A stretch of DNA of 64,000 nucleotides from NCBI RefSeq assembly GCF_007747655.1, contig NZ_CP036274.1, forward strand, positions 3,658,001 through 3,722,000, given 5' to 3'. Numbering within the stretch: the first letter of the stretch is position 1; each line of letters begins with the position of its first letter. Below, piece by piece: positions 23,762-33,952 of the stretch. A model generated the notes under the pieces. It worked only from the letters and a program-made list of their open reading frames with translations, was not told the DNA's origin and did not search any database. Position numbers and translations under genes: made by a program. Origin of the DNA: Anatilimnocola aggregata. GTDB lineage: Bacteria > Planctomycetota > Planctomycetia > Pirellulales > Pirellulaceae.

Positions 23762-24553
23762 CTAGGGAGCATTCTGGTTGCGAGCGATTGCTCGCGACCA
23801 TGCCAAGTCTGCGCCAGTCAGAGGAAGCTCAGGCTCGTGCTCGTAGATGATCAGATCGTACCGGACCTTATCGTATTCGGTGTCCAGCAGTTTCTTTAGA
23901 TCGATACGCACATCGGGATCCCCAGGACCAAGCGGCACTTGCAGTGGCGGGAAGGGATCTCGCACGCTGAAGGGCCAAATGTCAGCCTGCGGTCGCTCGT
24001 CGACACGGCTAACGAGAAGATAGTAATCGCAGTGCTCTAGCCCCTTCCAAGGAAGTTGCGGCCCGCTGCGTCGCAAGTCAATTTCCACGTAGTTGGCATC
24101 GCTCTTCAACACTTCATGTCGGCGGGCGATGAACAAGTCGCGATCTTTCCCCAATGACTTATTGGCCGGGCTTAGCAACTCGATGACGGTGACGACGTTG
24201 TGAGATTCTCGGTCGTGGATCTCGATAAAGGATACCCGCTCTTCGCTGTAGTGCGTCTGCCAAACATGCTTCGGTGCCGCAGACTCCGCGTGCGACAAAG
24301 TGGCGATCGCCACATTCTCTACCACGCGCGCAGGTGGTCGTTCTGTTACGGCTACATCGGCTCGCGCAAAAGAGCGAGGAGTTTGTTCTTCGAAATCATG
24401 TATGTAAAGGTGCTCTTCGATATTTGCGTAGTACTTCGGTGTGATCACAGCATTGAGCGCGGCGCGAATTGCCGTGATGAACGCCCCGTGAAAGTCTTGC
24501 CAGGCGGCAGGCTGTTCTAAGTAGGGGTTCATCCCGGGAAATTGCGAAGGCAT
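23762..24553 (-). CDS. DUF4058 family protein
   Basis: A 263-residue protein beginning MPSQFPGMNPYLEQPAAW, the characteristic N-terminus of DUF4058, and so started at 24553; the ATG at 24580 would add nine residues. The core has VTVIELLSPANKSLG then YVEIDLRRSG, resembling the PD-(D/E)XK-type core of Uma2-like domains, although nuclease activity has not been shown for the family to my knowledge. The last part reads VRIDLKKLLDTEYDKVRYDL. It lies downstream of the DUF1854 and ABC exporter genes on the same strand, 44 bases after the DUF1854 stop, so it may be co-transcribed with the cyanophycin-associated pair. A functional link is unproven. Confidence 0.85.
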   Translation of the reverse strand: MPSQFPGMNPYLEQPAAWQDFHGAFITAIRAALNAVITPKYYANIEEHLYIHDFEEQTPRSFARADVAVTERPPARVVENVAIATLSHAESAAPKHVWQTHYSEERVSFIEIHDRESHNVVTVIELLSPANKSLGKDRDLFIARRHEVLKSDANYVEIDLRRSGPQLPWKGLEHCDYYLLVSRVDERPQADIWPFSVRDPFPPLQVPLGPGDPDVRIDLKKLLDTEYDKVRYDLIIYEHEPELPLTGADLAWSRAIARNQNAP

Positions 24554-24597
24554 AGGTCGGGCTTCCGCAGCAAAAGACATGGAGCCAAAGACGGCCC

Positions 24598-25083
24598 TTA
24601 TGCGTATTCTTCCATCACCCGGCGGCTATAGCTATCGAGCTTGCGAAAATCAGGCACAAGGTACCGCATGCCGATGGCATCGACGATCAGCAGTTTGCCG
24701 GGTCCAAGGCTGCGGATATCGTCTTCGCTCTTGAGCACGAAGCGGGTTGGCCCGCGGTCGGTCTGTACATGCCACTCGCTGGGTTCGGTGTCGCTGCTGC
24801 AATGAGTCAACTGCTCGATGACTGGCAGGAACTCACGGTCTGCCAATTCACTCTCCAAGACCTCGCGCAAGTGAGTGGGTAGTTTCGTCAAGTCTTCGAT
24901 CAGAAGTACTTCGACGTTGCCGGGACCGACGAGCGAAATCCAATGATCGCGATCCGAGAATGGGAATAACCGGAGAGGAATTACGCCGACGTGCCGCACT
25001 CCGTCGGCATCGATCATGATCAATTGACCGAACGAGTCGCGTCCCAAGCTGAATAAATCTCCGTCGTGATGCTCGTTTTTCAT
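24598..25083 (-). CDS. Cyanophycin-associated DUF1854 protein
   Basis: A 161-residue protein matching DUF1854. It has the LGRDSFGQLIMIDADG opening, VRHVGVIPLRLFPFSDRDHWISL, and a C-terminal RYLVPDFRKLDSYSRRVMEEY. There is no signal peptide or membrane segment. Its start overlaps the stop of the ABC exporter (ATGA, 25080-25083), indicating coupled translation and probably a shared complex. This DUF1854/ABC-transporter pair is known from cyanophycin loci, and a cyanophycin synthetase gene is divergently encoded 3.3 kb away here. The molecular role is not established; a cytosolic regulator or adaptor of the exporter is a guess. Confidence 0.85.
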   Translation of the reverse strand: MKNEHHDGDLFSLGRDSFGQLIMIDADGVRHVGVIPLRLFPFSDRDHWISLVGPGNVEVLLIEDLTKLPTHLREVLESELADREFLPVIEQLTHCSSDTEPSEWHVQTDRGPTRFVLKSEDDIRSLGPGKLLIVDAIGMRYLVPDFRKLDSYSRRVMEEYA

Positions 25084-27329
25084 GGCGAGACGCCTCCCTG
25101 AGCCAATTCGTACTGAGCCTGATGCAACTTGGCGTAAGCGCCGTTGCGATCGAGCAGTTCCGTGTGACCGCCTACTTCCATGATGCGGCCCTGGTCCATC
25201 ACGACAATACGGCTAGCGTTGCGCAGGGTGCTAATGCGGTGGGCGATCGCGATTGTCGTGCGGCCACGGGTAAGGACGTCGAGCGCTTCCTGAATCTCTC
25301 GTTCGGTTTCGGTATCCACCGAAGAAGTGGCTTCGTCCAGGATTAAAATTCGCGGATCGGTGAGCAAGGCGCGAGCAATCGAAATTCGTTGACGTTCGCC
25401 CCCCGAGAGCGACTGGCCACGTTCGCCGACGATGGAATCGTAACCATCGGGCAGGCGAAGGATGAAGTCGTGCGCTTTGGCCGCTTTGGCGGCGGCGATG
25501 ATCTGCCCGCGAGTTGCACCGGGCTTGGCATAGGCAATGTTTTCGGCAATCGACCCGAAGAACAGAAACGGCTCTTGCAGCACAATGCCGATGTTGCGGC
25601 GGTATTCCTCGACAGGAAACGAACGAATATCGATGCCGTCGACCAGGATCGCTCCCGATGCTACGTCATAAAAGCGGCAGACAAGGTTCACGAGAGTGCT
25701 CTTGCCGGCACCACTCGCGCCGACCAGGCCGATCATTTCGCCCGGGGCAATCGACAAGCGGACGTCGTTAATTACCTGGCGACTGCCATAGGAGAAACGA
25801 ATGTCTCGAATCTCGATTTTTCCCTCCACACGTCCCGGTGAGACCGGCTTCATCGGTTCGGCCACGCTGGGGATGCGGTCGAGAATCTCGAAGATGCGGT
25901 GGGAAGCGGCAGCCGCTCGTTGCGAGTTCGAGAACATTCGGCTCATCGCATCGAGCCGAGTATAGAACCGGCCGATGTAGGCGAGAAACCCGATTAGCAC
26001 GCCTGTCTTCAGTTGGCCATTGGCAATTTGATAAACGCCGAACGCCCAAACCACAAGAATACCCGCATCGGTTAGCAAGCTGACCATTGGCCCGAAGAAT
26101 GCCCAGACGCGATTGACTCGGTCGTTCGATTCCAGCACATGGTTGTTGGCCGAGCGAAAACGCTCGACCTCACGCTGTTCCTGGGCAAACGCCTTGACCA
26201 CGCGAATGCCGGGGATCGTGTCGGAAAGCACGCTGATCATGTTCGACCAGGTGCGGTTCTCTTGATTGAACCCGTGCCGCATCTGCTTGCGGACTTTTTG
26301 AATCAGCCAGGCAATGATCGGAAACGGCACCAACGTGACGAGCGCTAGCTTCACATCTTGGGAGAACAGGATGAGCGAAGTGCCCACGATCATCAACAAG
26401 TCGCTGGCAAATTCGAGCAGATAGATGGAGAGGAACGTGCAAATTTTATCAGTGTCGCTACCCACGCGAGAGATCAAGTCGCCCGTGCGTTTGCCGCCGA
26501 AAAACTCCAGCGACAACTTCTGCAGGTGCGAGTACATCGCATTGCGCAGGTCGGCAGATATGCGGGAACTCAGGCGGGCGATGATCCAGGTTTTGGCCCA
26601 GCCCAAGAGCCAGGCGAGGAGTGCAGCAGCTAATAATCCTGAGAGATACCAGACGATCAGGCTCTGCTCGACCTTTTGGCCGGCCGCGAGAGGCGTCAGG
26701 ACTTCGTCGACCAGCGGCATCGTCAGGTAGGGCGGAATCAGTGTTGCGGCAGTGGCGGCGATCGTCAAAACCAGGCCGATCGCAAGCATCCCGCCACGCC
26801 GCTGGGCAAAGGGCAACAGCCGCAGCAGTGATTTCGAGGGTGGCAACTGAGCCATTGGCGCGCAGTTGGCGCAAGTCACATCTTCGGGCCCCAGCGTAGA
26901 ACCGCAGGACGGACAAACGGTGACTGTATCTTTGTCGGCGAGCGTTTCGTTCCGCAGGGCTGCGGCAACCCGCTGAGCAAAGCGATGGGCGGCGGTGGTA
27001 TGGCGAGACGTGAACCGCCAAGTGCCTAACCGGGCCGCAGCGCTGAGTAGTTCAATGGTTCCCAGGCCAAATTGATCGCGGCATTGGATCGATTGAAGCT
27101 GGTCGCGATCCCAGGTCTTGTTTTCGCCGCTTACCGCCGCAGCAGGAATGGCCAGAAACCGACGGTCGGTGAAGAGTAATAAAGTCTTGCCGTAGCTTAG
27201 GTTAGCAGCAAGATCGACTTCCAGCCAACAAATCAGATTTTCCCCTGCCGAAAGCGCAGCAGTCACCTTGGGCCCCCATTCTGGTGGAATGGCAGCCGGA
27301 GGAGTCGCAGAAGAAATGGGTTCGATCAC
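25080..27329 (-). CDS. Cyanophycin-associated ABC exporter with PH-like and zinc-ribbon N-terminal domains
   Basis: A 749-residue fused ABC exporter half. Residues about 20-125 form a PH-like beta domain (ICWLEVDLAANLSYGKTLLL). A zinc ribbon follows with Cys139, Cys142, Cys153 and Cys156. The six-helix transmembrane domain covers about 180-465 and the nucleotide-binding domain about 500-745. The latter has Walker A GASGAGKST, signature LSGGERQRIS, Walker B ILILDEATSSVD and the H-loop AIAHRIST. All ATPase motifs are intact, so a homodimer is likely. The soluble N-terminal domains are not part of ordinary lipid or peptide exporters and probably sense or recruit a partner. It is coupled to DUF1854 and divergent from cphA. 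The substrate is unknown. Confidence 0.9.
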   Translation of the reverse strand: MIEPISSATPPAAIPPEWGPKVTAALSAGENLICWLEVDLAANLSYGKTLLLFTDRRFLAIPAAAVSGENKTWDRDQLQSIQCRDQFGLGTIELLSAAARLGTWRFTSRHTTAAHRFAQRVAAALRNETLADKDTVTVCPSCGSTLGPEDVTCANCAPMAQLPPSKSLLRLLPFAQRRGGMLAIGLVLTIAATAATLIPPYLTMPLVDEVLTPLAAGQKVEQSLIVWYLSGLLAAALLAWLLGWAKTWIIARLSSRISADLRNAMYSHLQKLSLEFFGGKRTGDLISRVGSDTDKICTFLSIYLLEFASDLLMIVGTSLILFSQDVKLALVTLVPFPIIAWLIQKVRKQMRHGFNQENRTWSNMISVLSDTIPGIRVVKAFAQEQREVERFRSANNHVLESNDRVNRVWAFFGPMVSLLTDAGILVVWAFGVYQIANGQLKTGVLIGFLAYIGRFYTRLDAMSRMFSNSQRAAAASHRIFEILDRIPSVAEPMKPVSPGRVEGKIEIRDIRFSYGSRQVINDVRLSIAPGEMIGLVGASGAGKSTLVNLVCRFYDVASGAILVDGIDIRSFPVEEYRRNIGIVLQEPFLFFGSIAENIAYAKPGATRGQIIAAAKAAKAHDFILRLPDGYDSIVGERGQSLSGGERQRISIARALLTDPRILILDEATSSVDTETEREIQEALDVLTRGRTTIAIAHRISTLRNASRIVVMDQGRIMEVGGHTELLDRNGAYAKLHQAQYELAQGGVSP

Positions 27330-28431
27330 AGGCCGGCGAGAAGGAGCACTCTGGCGGGAAACAGCAAACTTCGCACAAATCTTTGGTCACGCAGTAACAA
27401 GACGTAACTCATTTTCCATATCTTACTTCAGAGAGATCATTCGGCGATTGTTTGCGAGTTGGTTGAGTTAGCTAAATCTTAGGAATCCTGCACCGATCTA
27501 GCTAGCCGAAACGTTACCAACGAGCATAATAATCGTCACCATTCCGGCGTTAAGCCGGGGAAGAAGAATAGTCTGGTGCGGATGGCGAGGGACGTCGCCA
27601 AGGGCGTCGCGGGTGTTTGGGGGACTTTGCCGGTGGTTTGGGCTAATTGCCAGGCCATGCGGTGAGTCAGTCACACATTGCGGCGCATCAGGATTTCTTC
27701 TTCGATGCGGAGCGATTGATAGGTACAAGCAGTTGCGGAAACTCCTTCGTGGTTGAGTTTCCGTTGCCGCAGCCGAAATCAATCGACTTTATTGATGCAT
27801 CGCCGCGCCATATTGGCTGTCAACACAACGCACCACTCGAACCTACAGCAAAGATTCGAGCGGGCTTCAACCCTGCGCCAGTCCTGTCGATATAGCTTAG
27901 GACCAGTTCTCGGGGTTGAAAGGATGAAGTTTGCTGTGCCTGTACGGTTGTACGATTCGCGACGATTGCACAGTACGCAGACAGTTTGTCCGACAGCGAC
28001 GGCTGGGAATGTTGACCGACACTTGATTCTCAACAATCGGGTGGCAACCAACGAACAGGCGGGCTTTGGCCTGCGTAGCCAATCACGAGGAATCGCTCCT
28101 GATGTTATCAGGCGGGAGATGGAAGCTCCCACGCAGCCAAGCGGACAATGGCCGGCGGCAATCCGTTATTTAAGACATTTTTCGCTTGAGCAACCATATT
28201 TCTGATCACGAGCGCATCAGATTTGCAACGGCAGGAAGCCTAATTCTCCTCTTAGTCCCCTGCCCCAACCGCGCGGAAGTGATCCAACACATGTAATCGT
28301 TCAAAACAACTCCTCAGCGCATCGCACGTGTGTACCTGCCGAGTCGTCACTCGACGCACGCTCCGCGATGCTGACCGTACAACCTCTCCTCAACTTACAC
28401 CCGCTTTTTTCGATAGGCTTGAATTACAGCC
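27330..28431. other. 1.1-kb divergent intergenic region between ABC exporter and cphA
   Basis: I see no intact gene. On the minus strand at about 27765-27545 a frame reads RLRQRKLNHEGVSATACTY, then EILMRRNV, a stop, and then LTHRMAWQLAQTTGKV, like a decayed coding fragment or a dispersed repeat. Another frame, open over 27498-27782, lacks a start context. The rest, including the promoters that must serve both divergent genes, shows nothing I can call with confidence. Confidence 0.4.
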
Positions 28432-31140
28432 ATGCAATTCCGTAAAGTTCTCGCGCTGCGTGGACCTAACTACTGGGCTAATTTTCCGGTGCTTGAAGCC
28501 TGGGTCGATCTGGGGGAGTGGAAAGACACTTCTTCGGAGATGATGCCCGGTTTCAACGAGCGGCTGATGTCATGGTTGCCCACCATGATCGAGCATCGCT
28601 GCAGTGTCGGCGAGCGCGGCGGCTTCTTCGAACGCCTCCGCCGCGGCACGTACCTCGCGCACATCCTCGAGCACGTCACGCTCGAGCTGCAATCGCTGGC
28701 CGGCACCGAGGTGGGCTTCGGCCGTGCTCGCGAGACTTCCGAGGAGGGAGTCTATAAGGTTGCGATCGAGTTTTCCGAAGAAACGCTGGCTCGCGCTTGC
28801 TTGGAAAAAGGTCGCGAACTGTGCATGGCTGCGGTGCTCGACAAGCCCTTTGACGTCGCTGCCGAAGTGCAACGACTCAAGGAACTGGCTTACGAATCGT
28901 GCTTGGGGCCTAGCACGGCCGCTATCGTGGATGCCGCGACTGCCCGGGGCATTCCCTATCGCCGTCTGAACTCGGGCAGCCTGGTGGTGCTTGGTCATGG
29001 GCATAAGCAACGCCGCATTCTGGCGGCTGAAACGGATCGGACCGGCGCGATTGCCGAGTCGATTGCCCAGGACAAAGATCTGACGCGTTCACTACTTTCC
29101 AGTGTCGGCGTGCCGGTGCCGGAAGGGCGGCCGGTGACCGATGCGGAAGATGCCTGGGAAGCAGCCCAGGAAATCGACGCTCCCGTCGTCGTGAAGCCGC
29201 AGTTCGGCAATCATGGTCGCGGTGTCGCCACGAACCTGACGACTCGCGATCAGGTGATGGCAGCTTTCGATGCCGCGCGGCAAGAAGGCAAAGAAATCAT
29301 CGTCGAGAAGTACGCTCCTGGCGCCGATCACCGCTTGCTGATTGTCGGTAATAAGGTGATCGCCGCTGCTCGCCGCGATCCACCCACAGTGACTGGCGAC
29401 GGTCGCTCGACCGTAGCTCAACTCGTCGCCGAAGTGAACAAAGATCCTCGCCGTAGCGACGGTCACTCGACGGTGATGAGCATCATCAAGCTCGATACCA
29501 TTGCCCGCGCGGTCCTGGGTGAACAGGGTTTATCGCCCGATGCGGTACCCGCCGTAGGCCAGGTGGTACTCATCCGCCGCAATGCCAACTTGAGCACCGG
29601 TGGCAGCGCCATTGATGTGACCGACGAAGTTCACCCCAGTGTGGCCGAGCAAGCTGTCGATGCAGCTCGCGTCATTGGTCTAGATATCGCCGGTGTCGAT
29701 ATCATTTGCCAGGACATTCGCCAGCCACTGAACGAACAAGGTGGCATTGTTTGCGAAGTGAACGCGGGCCCCGGCCTGCGGATGCACTTGCAACCTGCGA
29801 GTGGCCAGCCCAAGCCGGTCGGCGAGAAAATTGTCGAACTGATGTTTCCGCCAGGCGAAAACGGCCGTGTGCCGATCGTCGCCGTGACCGGTGTGAATGG
29901 CAAAACGACGACGACTCGCCTCATTGCTCATATCTTGAGTGTGACAGGTCGCACCGTTGGCCTCACTTGCACCGATGGCATCTACATCGGTTCGCGCCGT
30001 CTCGATACGGGCGACTGCAGCGGGCCAAAATCGGCTCGCGCTGTCCTGATTAATCCCACGGTCGAAGCTGCGGTGCTGGAAACAGCTCGCGGTGGTATCC
30101 TCCGCGAAGGTCTGGCCTACGATCAGTGCGATGTGGCCGTCGTCACCAACATTGGCGAAGGTGATCACCTCGGGTTGTCGGATATCGACGATCTGGAGAA
30201 GCTCGCTCGCGTCAAGCGCGTCATTGTCGATGCCGTTGCCAAGACCGGCTATGCAGTGCTCAATGCGGCTGATCCGTTGGTGGCTGCGATGGCGGAGAAA
30301 TGCCCTGGCGGCGTGGTCTTCTTCGCGCTCGACGAGAAGAATTCCGTCCTGAGCAACTGGCGCGACGGCAACGGCCGCGTGGTCTTTGTGCGGGACAACA
30401 GCGTCGTCCTCGCTGACGGGCTGTCCGAATTCTCGCTACTCTCGCTCGAGCGGATTCCGCTCACGCACGGCGGACGAGTTTCGTTCCAAGTCGAGAACGT
30501 GTTGGCTTCGGCAGCTGCTTGCTGGGCTCTCGGAGTACCGGCGGAACAAATCCGCGCTGGGCTCGAATCGTTCCACGCCAGCGTCGGCAAGTCGCCAGGT
30601 CGCTTCAATCTGTTTGCCTACAATGGGGCGACGATGATTGTCGACTACGGCCACAATCCTTCGTCCCTCCTCGCGCTGATGGATGTGATCCAGCAGTTCC
30701 CGCACGAGAAGCGGCTTGCCGTTTACTCGGCGGCTGGCGATCGACGCGATATCGACCTGGTTCGACAGGGCGAAATCCTTGGCGAACACTTCGACCGCGT
30801 GGTGGTTTACGAAGATCACTACCTGCGTGGCCGCAAGCCGGGCGAAATCACTGCTCGCTTTCGAGAAGGTTTGGAGCGTGGCAAGCGAGTGAAAGAGATT
30901 CAGGAAATCACAGGCTGGAAGATTGCCTGCGAACAAGTCCTGGCCAACGTTCGCCCCGGTGAACTGGTGCTGATGCAGGCCGACGTGGTGGATGAGACGG
31001 TCGACTACCTGAAGACGCTCGTTGCTGCCGACGCGCCGATTCGGCAAATCGATCTTTCCGAAGCACTCGCCCAGTCGAAGCCAGCCACGGAAGAGAAGCC
31101 CGCAGACCAGCCTCACTCGTCCAAAGTGCCGCTGAAGTAG
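28432..31140 (+). CDS. cphA: Cyanophycin synthetase
   Basis: A 902-residue enzyme that polymerises aspartate and arginine into multi-L-arginyl-poly-L-aspartate using ATP. The N-terminal domain begins MQFRKVLALRGPNYWANFPV, the CphA hallmark. An ATP-grasp domain (about 215-470) has VVKPQFGNHGRGV and CEVNAGPGLRMHL. A Mur-ligase-like domain has its P-loop VTGVNGKTTTTR with Lys491, the LETARGGILREGLAYD block, and later VDYGHNP. Both ligase sites look intact, arguing for a CphA1-type enzyme rather than the dipeptide-using CphA2. The last about 25 residues are Lys/Pro/Glu-rich. No cyanophycinase (cphB) gene is in the window. It is transcribed alone and ends at a strong terminator. Confidence 0.95.
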   Translation: MQFRKVLALRGPNYWANFPVLEAWVDLGEWKDTSSEMMPGFNERLMSWLPTMIEHRCSVGERGGFFERLRRGTYLAHILEHVTLELQSLAGTEVGFGRARETSEEGVYKVAIEFSEETLARACLEKGRELCMAAVLDKPFDVAAEVQRLKELAYESCLGPSTAAIVDAATARGIPYRRLNSGSLVVLGHGHKQRRILAAETDRTGAIAESIAQDKDLTRSLLSSVGVPVPEGRPVTDAEDAWEAAQEIDAPVVVKPQFGNHGRGVATNLTTRDQVMAAFDAARQEGKEIIVEKYAPGADHRLLIVGNKVIAAARRDPPTVTGDGRSTVAQLVAEVNKDPRRSDGHSTVMSIIKLDTIARAVLGEQGLSPDAVPAVGQVVLIRRNANLSTGGSAIDVTDEVHPSVAEQAVDAARVIGLDIAGVDIICQDIRQPLNEQGGIVCEVNAGPGLRMHLQPASGQPKPVGEKIVELMFPPGENGRVPIVAVTGVNGKTTTTRLIAHILSVTGRTVGLTCTDGIYIGSRRLDTGDCSGPKSARAVLINPTVEAAVLETARGGILREGLAYDQCDVAVVTNIGEGDHLGLSDIDDLEKLARVKRVIVDAVAKTGYAVLNAADPLVAAMAEKCPGGVVFFALDEKNSVLSNWRDGNGRVVFVRDNSVVLADGLSEFSLLSLERIPLTHGGRVSFQVENVLASAAACWALGVPAEQIRAGLESFHASVGKSPGRFNLFAYNGATMIVDYGHNPSSLLALMDVIQQFPHEKRLAVYSAAGDRRDIDLVRQGEILGEHFDRVVVYEDHYLRGRKPGEITARFREGLERGKRVKEIQEITGWKIACEQVLANVRPGELVLMQADVVDETVDYLKTLVAADAPIRQIDLSEALAQSKPATEEKPADQPHSSKVPLK

Positions 31141-32020: not shown

Positions 32021-33586
32021 TCATTTATCTCCGCCCTTCATTGCCGATTCCCTGCCCACCACAATGAAATAAACAACGACTCCGGCCACGATCAGCAGTG
32101 AGCCGGCAATCGTTTGCGGCAACGCATCGAGCAATAGGCTGACCAGGGCCGCTGCGAAGACGAGCAAATAAAACGCCGGCGTAATTGGGTAGCCCCAGGT
32201 GCGATAGGGACGAGGTAACTCGGGCCTTGTCCAACGGAGAATGAAGACGGCCCCGACGGCCATCGCATAAAAGATCGAACCGCCAAAGATGACGAAATTT
32301 GTCAGCGCATCGAAGGCCTCGCGCGGTCCACTCTTGGGAATAAATGCTTTCCGCAGCCATTGGGCGATCATGCCCACGGGTTGTGCGTCGGCAGCAACCA
32401 TGGGGCTGGTGACTGGTTCCGGTCCGGGCACTGGTGGATCGGGGGCAGTCCACCAATACGCTCCGATCACCAGCACCAACGACCAGGCCATTTGGGCGAT
32501 GACGGCATTGGCCGGTGTTTTGAAACGAGGATGAACATGGCTGATGGCAGCGGGAAGCAGACCGTCGCGCGCCATCGCGAAATAGATTCGGGGGCCGGCG
32601 AGCAAATTGGAATTGAGCGCGCCGAAGGTGGAGAACGTTACCCCCAGCGCGGCGAGCCACAGCCAGTGAGTGCCAAGCAGCGACCGGGTGACGTCGGTTG
32701 CCACCGCAGTGGAGTTAGCGACATCCTGCATGGGAAGCACGAGGTGATAACTGGCGTTCGCCCCCAAATAAACGGCAATTACCAGCAACACCCCTGCAGC
32801 CAGCGCGAAGGGAACATTTCGCTGAGGTTCTTTGATTTCTTCGGCGACCGGGCCAATGTTGATCCAGCCATCGTAGGGCCAGAAGACGGCGATCATGGCA
32901 ATGCCCATCGAGCGGAAAAAGGCCAGCGACCAATCGGCGGGCCATATAGGTTGCAGGTTGTCGGTCTTCGCTTTGAGCAGGACGAATGGAGCCACGATCA
33001 GAAACAGGATGAACGCGACCTTGATGACCGAGGTTACGTTCTGCACCCAAGCTGCCCAGCGCGTGCCGATCACGTTAATCACCGAACAAATGATGATCAG
33101 CAGCAGCGAGACCATTCCTTGGGCATTGTGGGTGAGAGGTATATGGTCAGCGAAGAACGCGGGTAACCAGTCGGCGCTCTTGGCTGCGACCAGCAATTCA
33201 TTGCCGTAAATAACCGTTGCGCACGCCAGCGCGCCGAGCGAACCGGTGCGAATAATCCAGAACTCGGTCCACCCCCATAAGAAGGCAGGCAAGCGTCCAT
33301 AAGCTTCGCGCAGATAGACATACGGTCCTCCCGCCTGCGGCAGCATCGCGGCTAGTTCAGCCAAGGCAAGTGCGCCACAAAGTGTGACCAGGCCCACGAC
33401 AATCCAGATCAGCATGATCGGGCCGAAGGACTGCAGTTCTGTCGCAACGGTGCTGGCCTTGAGAAAGATTCCGCTGCCGATGATCGATCCGACCACGACG
33501 GTAATCGCATCGAAGCGATTCAGCACTCGCGGCAGCGTTTCGGCGCTACTTAGTGGTTCATTGGCACTCTCGGGTCGTGAAGACAT
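32021..33586 (-). CDS. APC-superfamily amino-acid permease
   Basis: A 520-residue inner-membrane transporter with about 12 membrane segments. The N-terminal signature NRFDAITVVVGSIIGSGIFL is the substrate-binding unwound helix 1 of APC/LAT-type amino-acid permeases. GALALAELAAMLPQAGGPYV and the later GPRIYFAMARDGLLP are also family marks. The loop after about residue 365 is longer than usual and Pro-rich (WWTAPDPPVPGPEPVTSP). The ATG at 33586 is supported by AAAGG 6 bases upstream. The gene is divergent from the glycine-cleavage operon and co-transcribed with the alkylation-repair gene. Substrate unknown; neutral amino acids are the family norm. Confidence 0.9.
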   Translation of the reverse strand: MSSRPESANEPLSSAETLPRVLNRFDAITVVVGSIIGSGIFLKASTVATELQSFGPIMLIWIVVGLVTLCGALALAELAAMLPQAGGPYVYLREAYGRLPAFLWGWTEFWIIRTGSLGALACATVIYGNELLVAAKSADWLPAFFADHIPLTHNAQGMVSLLLIIICSVINVIGTRWAAWVQNVTSVIKVAFILFLIVAPFVLLKAKTDNLQPIWPADWSLAFFRSMGIAMIAVFWPYDGWINIGPVAEEIKEPQRNVPFALAAGVLLVIAVYLGANASYHLVLPMQDVANSTAVATDVTRSLLGTHWLWLAALGVTFSTFGALNSNLLAGPRIYFAMARDGLLPAAISHVHPRFKTPANAVIAQMAWSLVLVIGAYWWTAPDPPVPGPEPVTSPMVAADAQPVGMIAQWLRKAFIPKSGPREAFDALTNFVIFGGSIFYAMAVGAVFILRWTRPELPRPYRTWGYPITPAFYLLVFAAALVSLLLDALPQTIAGSLLIVAGVVVYFIVVGRESAMKGGDK

Positions 33587-33952
33587 GCAGACCTTTCGCA
33601 AACCGGAAATAGACCGCTAGCGCACAAGAGAGGAATTCGCCCGCGCAGCATATCGCAGCAGCGCGGCTCTGGCGAGGCGGAAGCGAAATTCCTTGCCCAG
33701 AATCAATCGAACTTCAGCTTTCGGTTTCTCGCAAAAAATGAGGGCAAAGGATTCGATGGGTTTGGGGTAATTTCGCTGCAGTTCTGCACTCACCCACGAA
33801 CCGCCAAGCTAGCGCCGCCCCTAGTTTCGCCCGACCGCCGCGATACAATGCACCTCTTGCAGTTCGATCCTTGACAACCTGAACCAATCGCTTCCCTAAA
33901 TGCCCTGCCCGGCCACGTTGGCGGCTATCCGGGAAATGTTCCGGGAGATGTG
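33587..33952. other. Divergent intergenic region between the APC permease and gcvT
   Basis: It holds no gene. I looked for a glycine riboswitch ahead of gcvT and did not see its conserved core. The last bases carry GGGAG ahead of the gcvT start. Confidence 0.5.

Follow-up and report, generated by a model that had tools for sequence, protein, structure and literature searches.

In the planctomycete Anatilimnocola aggregata, a gene for cyanophycin synthetase (CphA) is arranged divergently from a gene pair encoding an ATP-binding cassette (ABC) exporter and a small protein of the DUF1854 family. Here, we are discussing this locus on the basis of a 64,000-nucleotide stretch ("the window"; C1:3658001-3722000 of a single-contig genome of 9.0 Mb), in which the following features were recognised, with the underlying evidence in brackets:

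28432..31140, + strand: cphA, cyanophycin synthetase of the exporter-linked clade, 902 amino acids (reading frame, family profiles, active-site motifs)
25080..27329, - strand: ABC exporter, ABCB/MsbA-like half transporter, 749 amino acids, GTG start (reading frame, family profiles, ATPase motifs)
26952..27284, - strand: N-terminal pleckstrin homology (PH) domain of the exporter, approximately residues 16-126
26862..26915, - strand: zinc ribbon CPSCGSTLGPEDVTCANC of the exporter, residues 139-156 (motif and a weak eL40 match of the N-terminal profile)
24598..25083, - strand: DUF1854, small soluble protein, 161 amino acids, ATGA-coupled to the ABC gene (reading frame, family profiles, structure model)
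27330..28431, no strand: intergenic region of 1.1 kb separating the divergent ABC and cphA genes (coordinates, Rfam search)
23762..24580, - strand: DUF4058 gene, 272 amino acids, judged to be a neighbour rather than a part (reading frame, PF13267)

All four genes are intact with regard to reading frames, start and stop codons and family matches, as had been proposed in an earlier note made from the sequence alone. The CphA protein is of full length and scores above both curated cut-offs, with 1268 bits against NF010623 (cut-off 877; residues 1-865) and 1091 bits against TIGR02068 (cut-off 850; residues 5-862). It retains the Cx19HxxEH primer-making site of the N-domain, H267 of the G-domain, and D585 and H586 of the M-domain (SuCphA1 numbering); the roles of these sites are described in PMC9262961, according to which changes of the G- and M-domain residues inactivate SuCphA1. 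The window CphA may make the Asp-Arg polymer.

The ABC protein reaches 1134 bits (cut-off 880) against NF052233, the "cyanophycin metabolism-associated ABC transporter", and its ATPase motifs—Walker A, signature, Walker B, and H-loop—are complete. In its transmembrane and nucleotide-binding domains it resembles exporters of the ABCB/MsbA type (bile salt export pump, P-glycoprotein, TM_0288, MsbA), from which it differs by the extra cytosolic PH domain, whose seven-strand sheet with a capping C-terminal helix matches solved PH domains, by the zinc ribbon, and by its DUF1854 partner. The latter scores 181 bits against NF052234 (cut-off 150) and 144 bits against PF08909 (cut-off 26.8); its start overlaps the stop of the ABC gene in the tetranucleotide ATGA, an overlap of four nucleotides that is found, as called, in 25 of 100 ABC-DUF1854 pairs. 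The structure model of DUF1854 consists of two successive modules, each of six strands and a helix, and in comparison with PH/polo-box-like and other folds, the best structural matches are weak and are to binding modules. DUF1854 is probably a soluble accessory of the ABC exporter. The Rfam search of the divergent intergenic region gave no match.

The association of both proteins with cyanophycin loci has already been recorded by the NCBI curators of NF052233 and NF052234, whose names state an association without a mechanism. The present analysis adds the mutual exclusion with the cyanophycinase gene cphB, the division of CphA into two clades, the exporter's architecture of PH domain and zinc ribbon, and the existence of relatives of the pair that stand alone. 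A comparable "Group 1" cphA cluster from activated sludge has been reported in PMC10687191; like the window, it has an ABC transporter gene beside cphA and no cphB, differing in its two cphA copies, where the window has one copy divergent from the pair. The authors suspected a composite transposon, and in the main text of that paper the string "DUF" occurs 0 times.

For comparisons between genomes, purpose-built profiles for CphA, CphB, ABC, DUF1854, and DUF4058 were derived from the window and its relatives, and trees were calculated with a quick method under LG+G4. In a phylum sample of 294 genomes, cphA was over the cut-off in 32 and the ABC gene in four, all within those 32; these four all belong to the window's class, which contributes 21 genomes to the sample, and have the four strongest DUF1854 matches. 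In a class sample of 158 genomes (thresholds: cphA, E 1e-60; ABC, at least 730 bits; DUF1854, at least 100 bits), 40 genomes matched cphA, of which G309 was dropped, having the ATP-grasp part only, leaving 39; the ABC gene was found in 38, and DUF1854 in the same 38. Both cphA and ABC occur in 37 genomes, cphA alone in two (G370, G390), ABC alone in one (G311), and neither in 118 (Fisher p ~1e-32, uncorrected for kinship), with the caveat that in five of the 37 genomes with the trio (G332, G320, G360, G415, G443) all cphA matches are under the TIGR02068 cut-off. The trio lies within 12 kb in 26 of the 37; four others (G105, G283, G367, G386) keep all three genes with at least one of them distant on the same contig, and in the remaining seven the genes are split over contigs, so that linkage cannot be judged.

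When a wider collection of 84,980 species genomes was scanned with DUF1854, 176 relatives were obtained, and the counts given below refer to the best 80 of these; seeding with the DUF1854 of four cphA-bearing genomes and the use of one peptide pattern bias them to the cyanophycin-linked kind. The ABC gene is adjacent in 77 of the 80 loci, which are mostly from beta-proteobacteria, with Planctomycetota, Verrucomicrobiota, and few others besides; cphA is present in 67 (at least two copies in 57) and divergent from the pair in 63. Twelve of the 13 loci lacking cphA belong to genomes with a cphA match elsewhere, nine of these over the cut-off. The survey which the earlier note had named as capable of refuting its link between cphA and the pair hence failed to do so, given the near-perfect co-occurrence in the class and the adjacency in most of the 80 loci across several phyla.

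That the trio is merely a cluster of shared ancestry or of mobile origin, carried jointly by chance, is highly improbable. The CphA and ABC trees do each contain one exporter-linked group across several phyla, as block transfer would give; however, the trio is kept also where its genes are widely separated on one contig, and in 155 of 158 class genomes cphA and ABC are either both present or both absent. The genomes compared show that the three genes persist as a group, whether they are neighbours or dispersed, and it is nearly certain that they form a functional set.

Beside cphA, either cphB or the ABC-DUF1854 pair is found in the sequences, the pair sitting at the usual place of cphB. Among planctomycete genomes with cphA and without the pair, cphB lies beside cphA in 28 of 30 (26 of 28 in the phylum sample, plus G370 and G390); the two others are G058 and G149, the cphA of the latter lying at a contig end. 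This phylum count was based on cphA over the cut-off and left out five genomes with sub-cut-off matches. In the cphA-bearing stretches of the 37 trio genomes (at least one per genome, some short), cphB was found in none, and the window, too, holds no match to the CphB profile, which agrees with the earlier note. In the CphA tree, one main split with full support separates a cphB-linked clade (26 sequences and two without cphB), to which the CphA of G390 belongs, from an exporter-linked clade of 67, with one misfit. This misfit, G370, has an exporter-clade CphA and a signal-less cphB starting approximately 65 nucleotides after cphA, and the class genome searches found no ABC-DUF1854 pair in it. 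The exclusivity, thus, mainly reflects one old split and one apparent swap. The classical storage locus of cyanobacteria and of some planctomycetes (L089, L091, L097) shares the N-, G- and M-domains of CphA with the window, yet has an adjacent cphB and a CphA of the other clade.

Published counts agree independently: according to PMC10206079, a recognised cyanophycinase is present in 2.8% of 903 beta-proteobacterial CphA1 genomes, as against 95.6-100% in six other named clades and 70% in "Other". The near absence in cphA-bearing beta-proteobacteria was termed "unanticipated" there, and unknown cyanophycinase isozymes were proposed for such genomes. It is in line with that proposal to ask whether DUF1854, or its complex with the ABC protein, is itself the missing cytosolic cyanophycinase; the pair stands where cphB otherwise would, and G370 has cphB where the pair was not found. 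We consider this improbable, because the residues invariant in an alignment of 12 cyanophycin-linked and stand-alone DUF1854 sequences (M1, P41, R73, T108, G111, D135, G138, L149) include no evident Ser/Cys/His nucleophile set, the weak best matches of the model are to binding modules, and DUF1854 also lies beside ABC genes where no cphA was found.

The two clades differ in their active sites as well. All 28 rows of the cphB-linked clade have H267, compared with 19 of 68 in the exporter-linked clade, where Gln (47) or Tyr (2) is found in the others. Where a locus has two copies and the tree includes both, the N-domain site and H267 are frequently intact in one copy and both lost from the other (e.g., L139, L153). 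In view of these losses, an altered CphA product is possible in parts of the exporter-linked clade.

With regard to degradation, the earlier note had expected a cyanophycinase to be encoded elsewhere, and searching the whole genome with TIGR02069 indeed retrieved two cyanophycinase-like proteins of the S51 family, one of 319 amino acids, over the cyanophycinase cut-off, and a two-domain protein of 570 amino acids. In the former, GGTSAGA and the DQHFxxRxRxxR segment align with solved cyanophycinases, and we take these residues to have a role in the pocket. The latter is a tandem encoded at C1:681468-682886 (L101:7385-9097); such tandems recur in the class. By hydropathy rules, both have signal-peptide-like N-termini, unlike the cytosolic enzyme of the classical locus, and a cytosolic cyanophycinase was not found by these means, which an undescribed isozyme would escape. 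For the isoaspartyl dipeptidase suggested alongside cphB in the earlier note, the genome has one candidate, an Asparaginase_2 (IaaA-type) member (359 bits) from a family with several activities; the search for IadA gave nothing over the cut-off (best 35 of 331 bits).

The secreted appearance extends to other genomes. A first signal rule was positive in 13 of 15 S51 frames, in 28 of 49 rows (two repeats among them) at the remaining trio-genome loci, where hydrophobic stretches visible by eye were missed, and in none of 28 cphA-linked CphB frames. A uniform rule, devised after these results, calls for a hydrophobic stretch within the 75 residues before the domain and drops frames below 100 bits or with a match start beyond profile position 20 (10 of 62 trio and one of 28 cphA-linked frames). 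By this rule, the S51 frames from trio genomes have a secreted appearance in 49 of 52 cases, versus one of 27 cphA-linked CphB frames; in the three trio exceptions the domain starts at frame residues 245-415. At E 1e-20, S51 proteins are found in 31 of the 37 trio genomes, which is an enrichment and not a specific feature. According to PMC8560796, extracellular cyanophycinases occur in Ralstonia and Nitrosomonas.

Taken together, we favour the view, to which we assign a probability of roughly 0.47, that the locus is a module which both makes and exports cyanophycin or oligomers of it; the module as such is well supported, and the cargo is what we infer. In the cytosol, CphA would make cyanophycin or short beta-Asp-Arg oligomers; the PH domain, the zinc ribbon, and DUF1854 would engage the synthase or its product, which the ABC protein would carry through the inner membrane. 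Once outside the cytosol, the product could in these planctomycetes be cut by the secreted S51 cyanophycinases, and permeases could take the amino acids back up; in beta-proteobacteria, for which the published counts indicate almost no cyanophycinase, the product would remain outside. The identity of the cargo with the CphA product, its exit from the cytosol, and the action of S51 enzymes on it are inferred.

Several observations weigh against export. The usual substrates of ABCB-type exporters are small or amphipathic, and it would be uncommon for one of them to carry a polymer that is long and insoluble. DUF1854 occurs without cphA in 28 of 32 genomes of the phylum sample, and 34 of 39 such loci have an ABC gene; therefore, the transporter family has other cargoes. 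S51 proteins (E 1e-20) are also present in 53 of the 118 class genomes with neither cphA nor ABC, and in genomes without cphA they look equally secreted (13 of 16 by the first signal rule); they may, therefore, serve scavenging. Since the exclusivity is largely one ancient split in the CphA tree (two changes), the counts are not independent. Further, among the best 80 loci, L142 has a signal-less cphB directly after the ABC-DUF1854 pair, and L194 has a cphB with a signal-like start by eye. Lastly, cyanophycin is reported from Bordetella species in a review (PMC8560796).

The main competing view is ordinary intracellular storage, as in the earlier note, with CphA filling granules and the pair in a side role that protects or balances the cell, for instance through the export of excess arginine or beta-Asp-Arg dipeptide, or by acting as a flippase for a lipid of the envelope, the polymer itself not being carried. 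The three intact active-site motifs of the window CphA, the usual substrates of ABCB-type exporters, the IaaA-type protein of the genome, and the Bordetella report are in its favour. Yet it leaves the position of the pair in place of cphB unexplained, and the searches of this genome gave no cytosolic cyanophycinase, both S51 proteins looking secreted. In addition, according to two reviews (PMC8560796, PMC11362209), no cyanophycin was detected from either of the CphA homologues, two in number, that Ralstonia eutropha (Cupriavidus necator) has, in the native host or in Escherichia coli, and three Cupriavidus loci read here, strain H16 not among them, are of the same type as the window. The claim of nitrogen storage is, thus, weakened by the Ralstonia reports and kept alive by Bordetella; overall, we regard this storage view as rather unlikely.

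Extending the export view, we tentatively propose that there are two kinds of cyanophycin systems, the second combining a CphA of its own clade with a PH/zinc-ribbon ABC exporter and a DUF1854 adaptor, the polyamide or oligomer being exported without a cytosolic store. Cyanophycin, a nitrogen-rich polymer of amino acids, is described as a storage polymer, and an exporter in the place of cphB would be a direct answer to the scarcity of cyanophycinases noted in PMC10206079. A synthase gene that travels with an exporter instead of a degrading enzyme suggests that some bacteria may ship the polymer out, not just store it. If true, this would explain hundreds of beta-proteobacterial genomes with cphA and without a recognised cyanophycinase; DUF1854 would be given a probable function, as an accessory of ABC exporters, and the biotechnological production of the polymer, where export would be valuable, would be concerned as well.

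The DUF4058 gene, which the earlier note had counted into a three-gene minus-strand unit, starts 17 nucleotides downstream of DUF1854, and its product matches PF13267 with 230 bits (cut-off 25). A profile built from the window protein alone matched none of 171 other stretches, some of them without the pair, and DUF4058 is not among the recurrent neighbours of the compared loci; the ABC-DUF1854 part of the unit stands, and DUF4058 is left as a mere neighbour, unsupported as a component of the system. Near cphA, on the opposite strand, lies a gene for an amino acid permease (PF13520; window 32021-33601). Near the trio in class loci (e.g., L315, L327), ketol-acid reductoisomerase-like (8 loci) and acetolactate-synthase-small-subunit-like (7) genes, named by eye, were seen.

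As for relatives of the pair, the cyanophycin-linked ABC proteins form one clade beside stand-alone ABC-DUF1854 pairs in the ABC tree. Fusions of both proteins exist, one within the cyanophycin-linked clade; single open frames of this kind are found in L068, L077, L084, L087, L345, and other frames of 900-1060 amino acids, mostly far from cphA. Five loci (L075, L079, L082, L083, L085; family code f34) have DUF1854 without an adjacent ABC gene; a PDZ/trypsin-type protein like that of L075/L085 is encoded in all five, in three of them immediately ahead of DUF1854, and four of the loci have a RecA-like gene. The archaeon Sulfolobus acidocaldarius, a control genome, has a DUF1854 match and no cphA match at E 1e-60.

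Additional CphA-like proteins were also encountered. In planctomycetes outside the window's class, a ligase of approximately 550-690 amino acids comprising the Mur-ligase half only (profile ~475-860) is encoded directly 3' of cphA in nine loci (L089, L090, L091, L097, L098, L099, L102, L103, L104), with the order cphB-cphA-short ligase in all but L090. The planctomycete metagenome-assembled genomes of L127, L129, L130, L131, L133, and L137 encode up to three extra CphA-like proteins besides cphA, many of them of approximately 715-755 amino acids (profile ~4-710).

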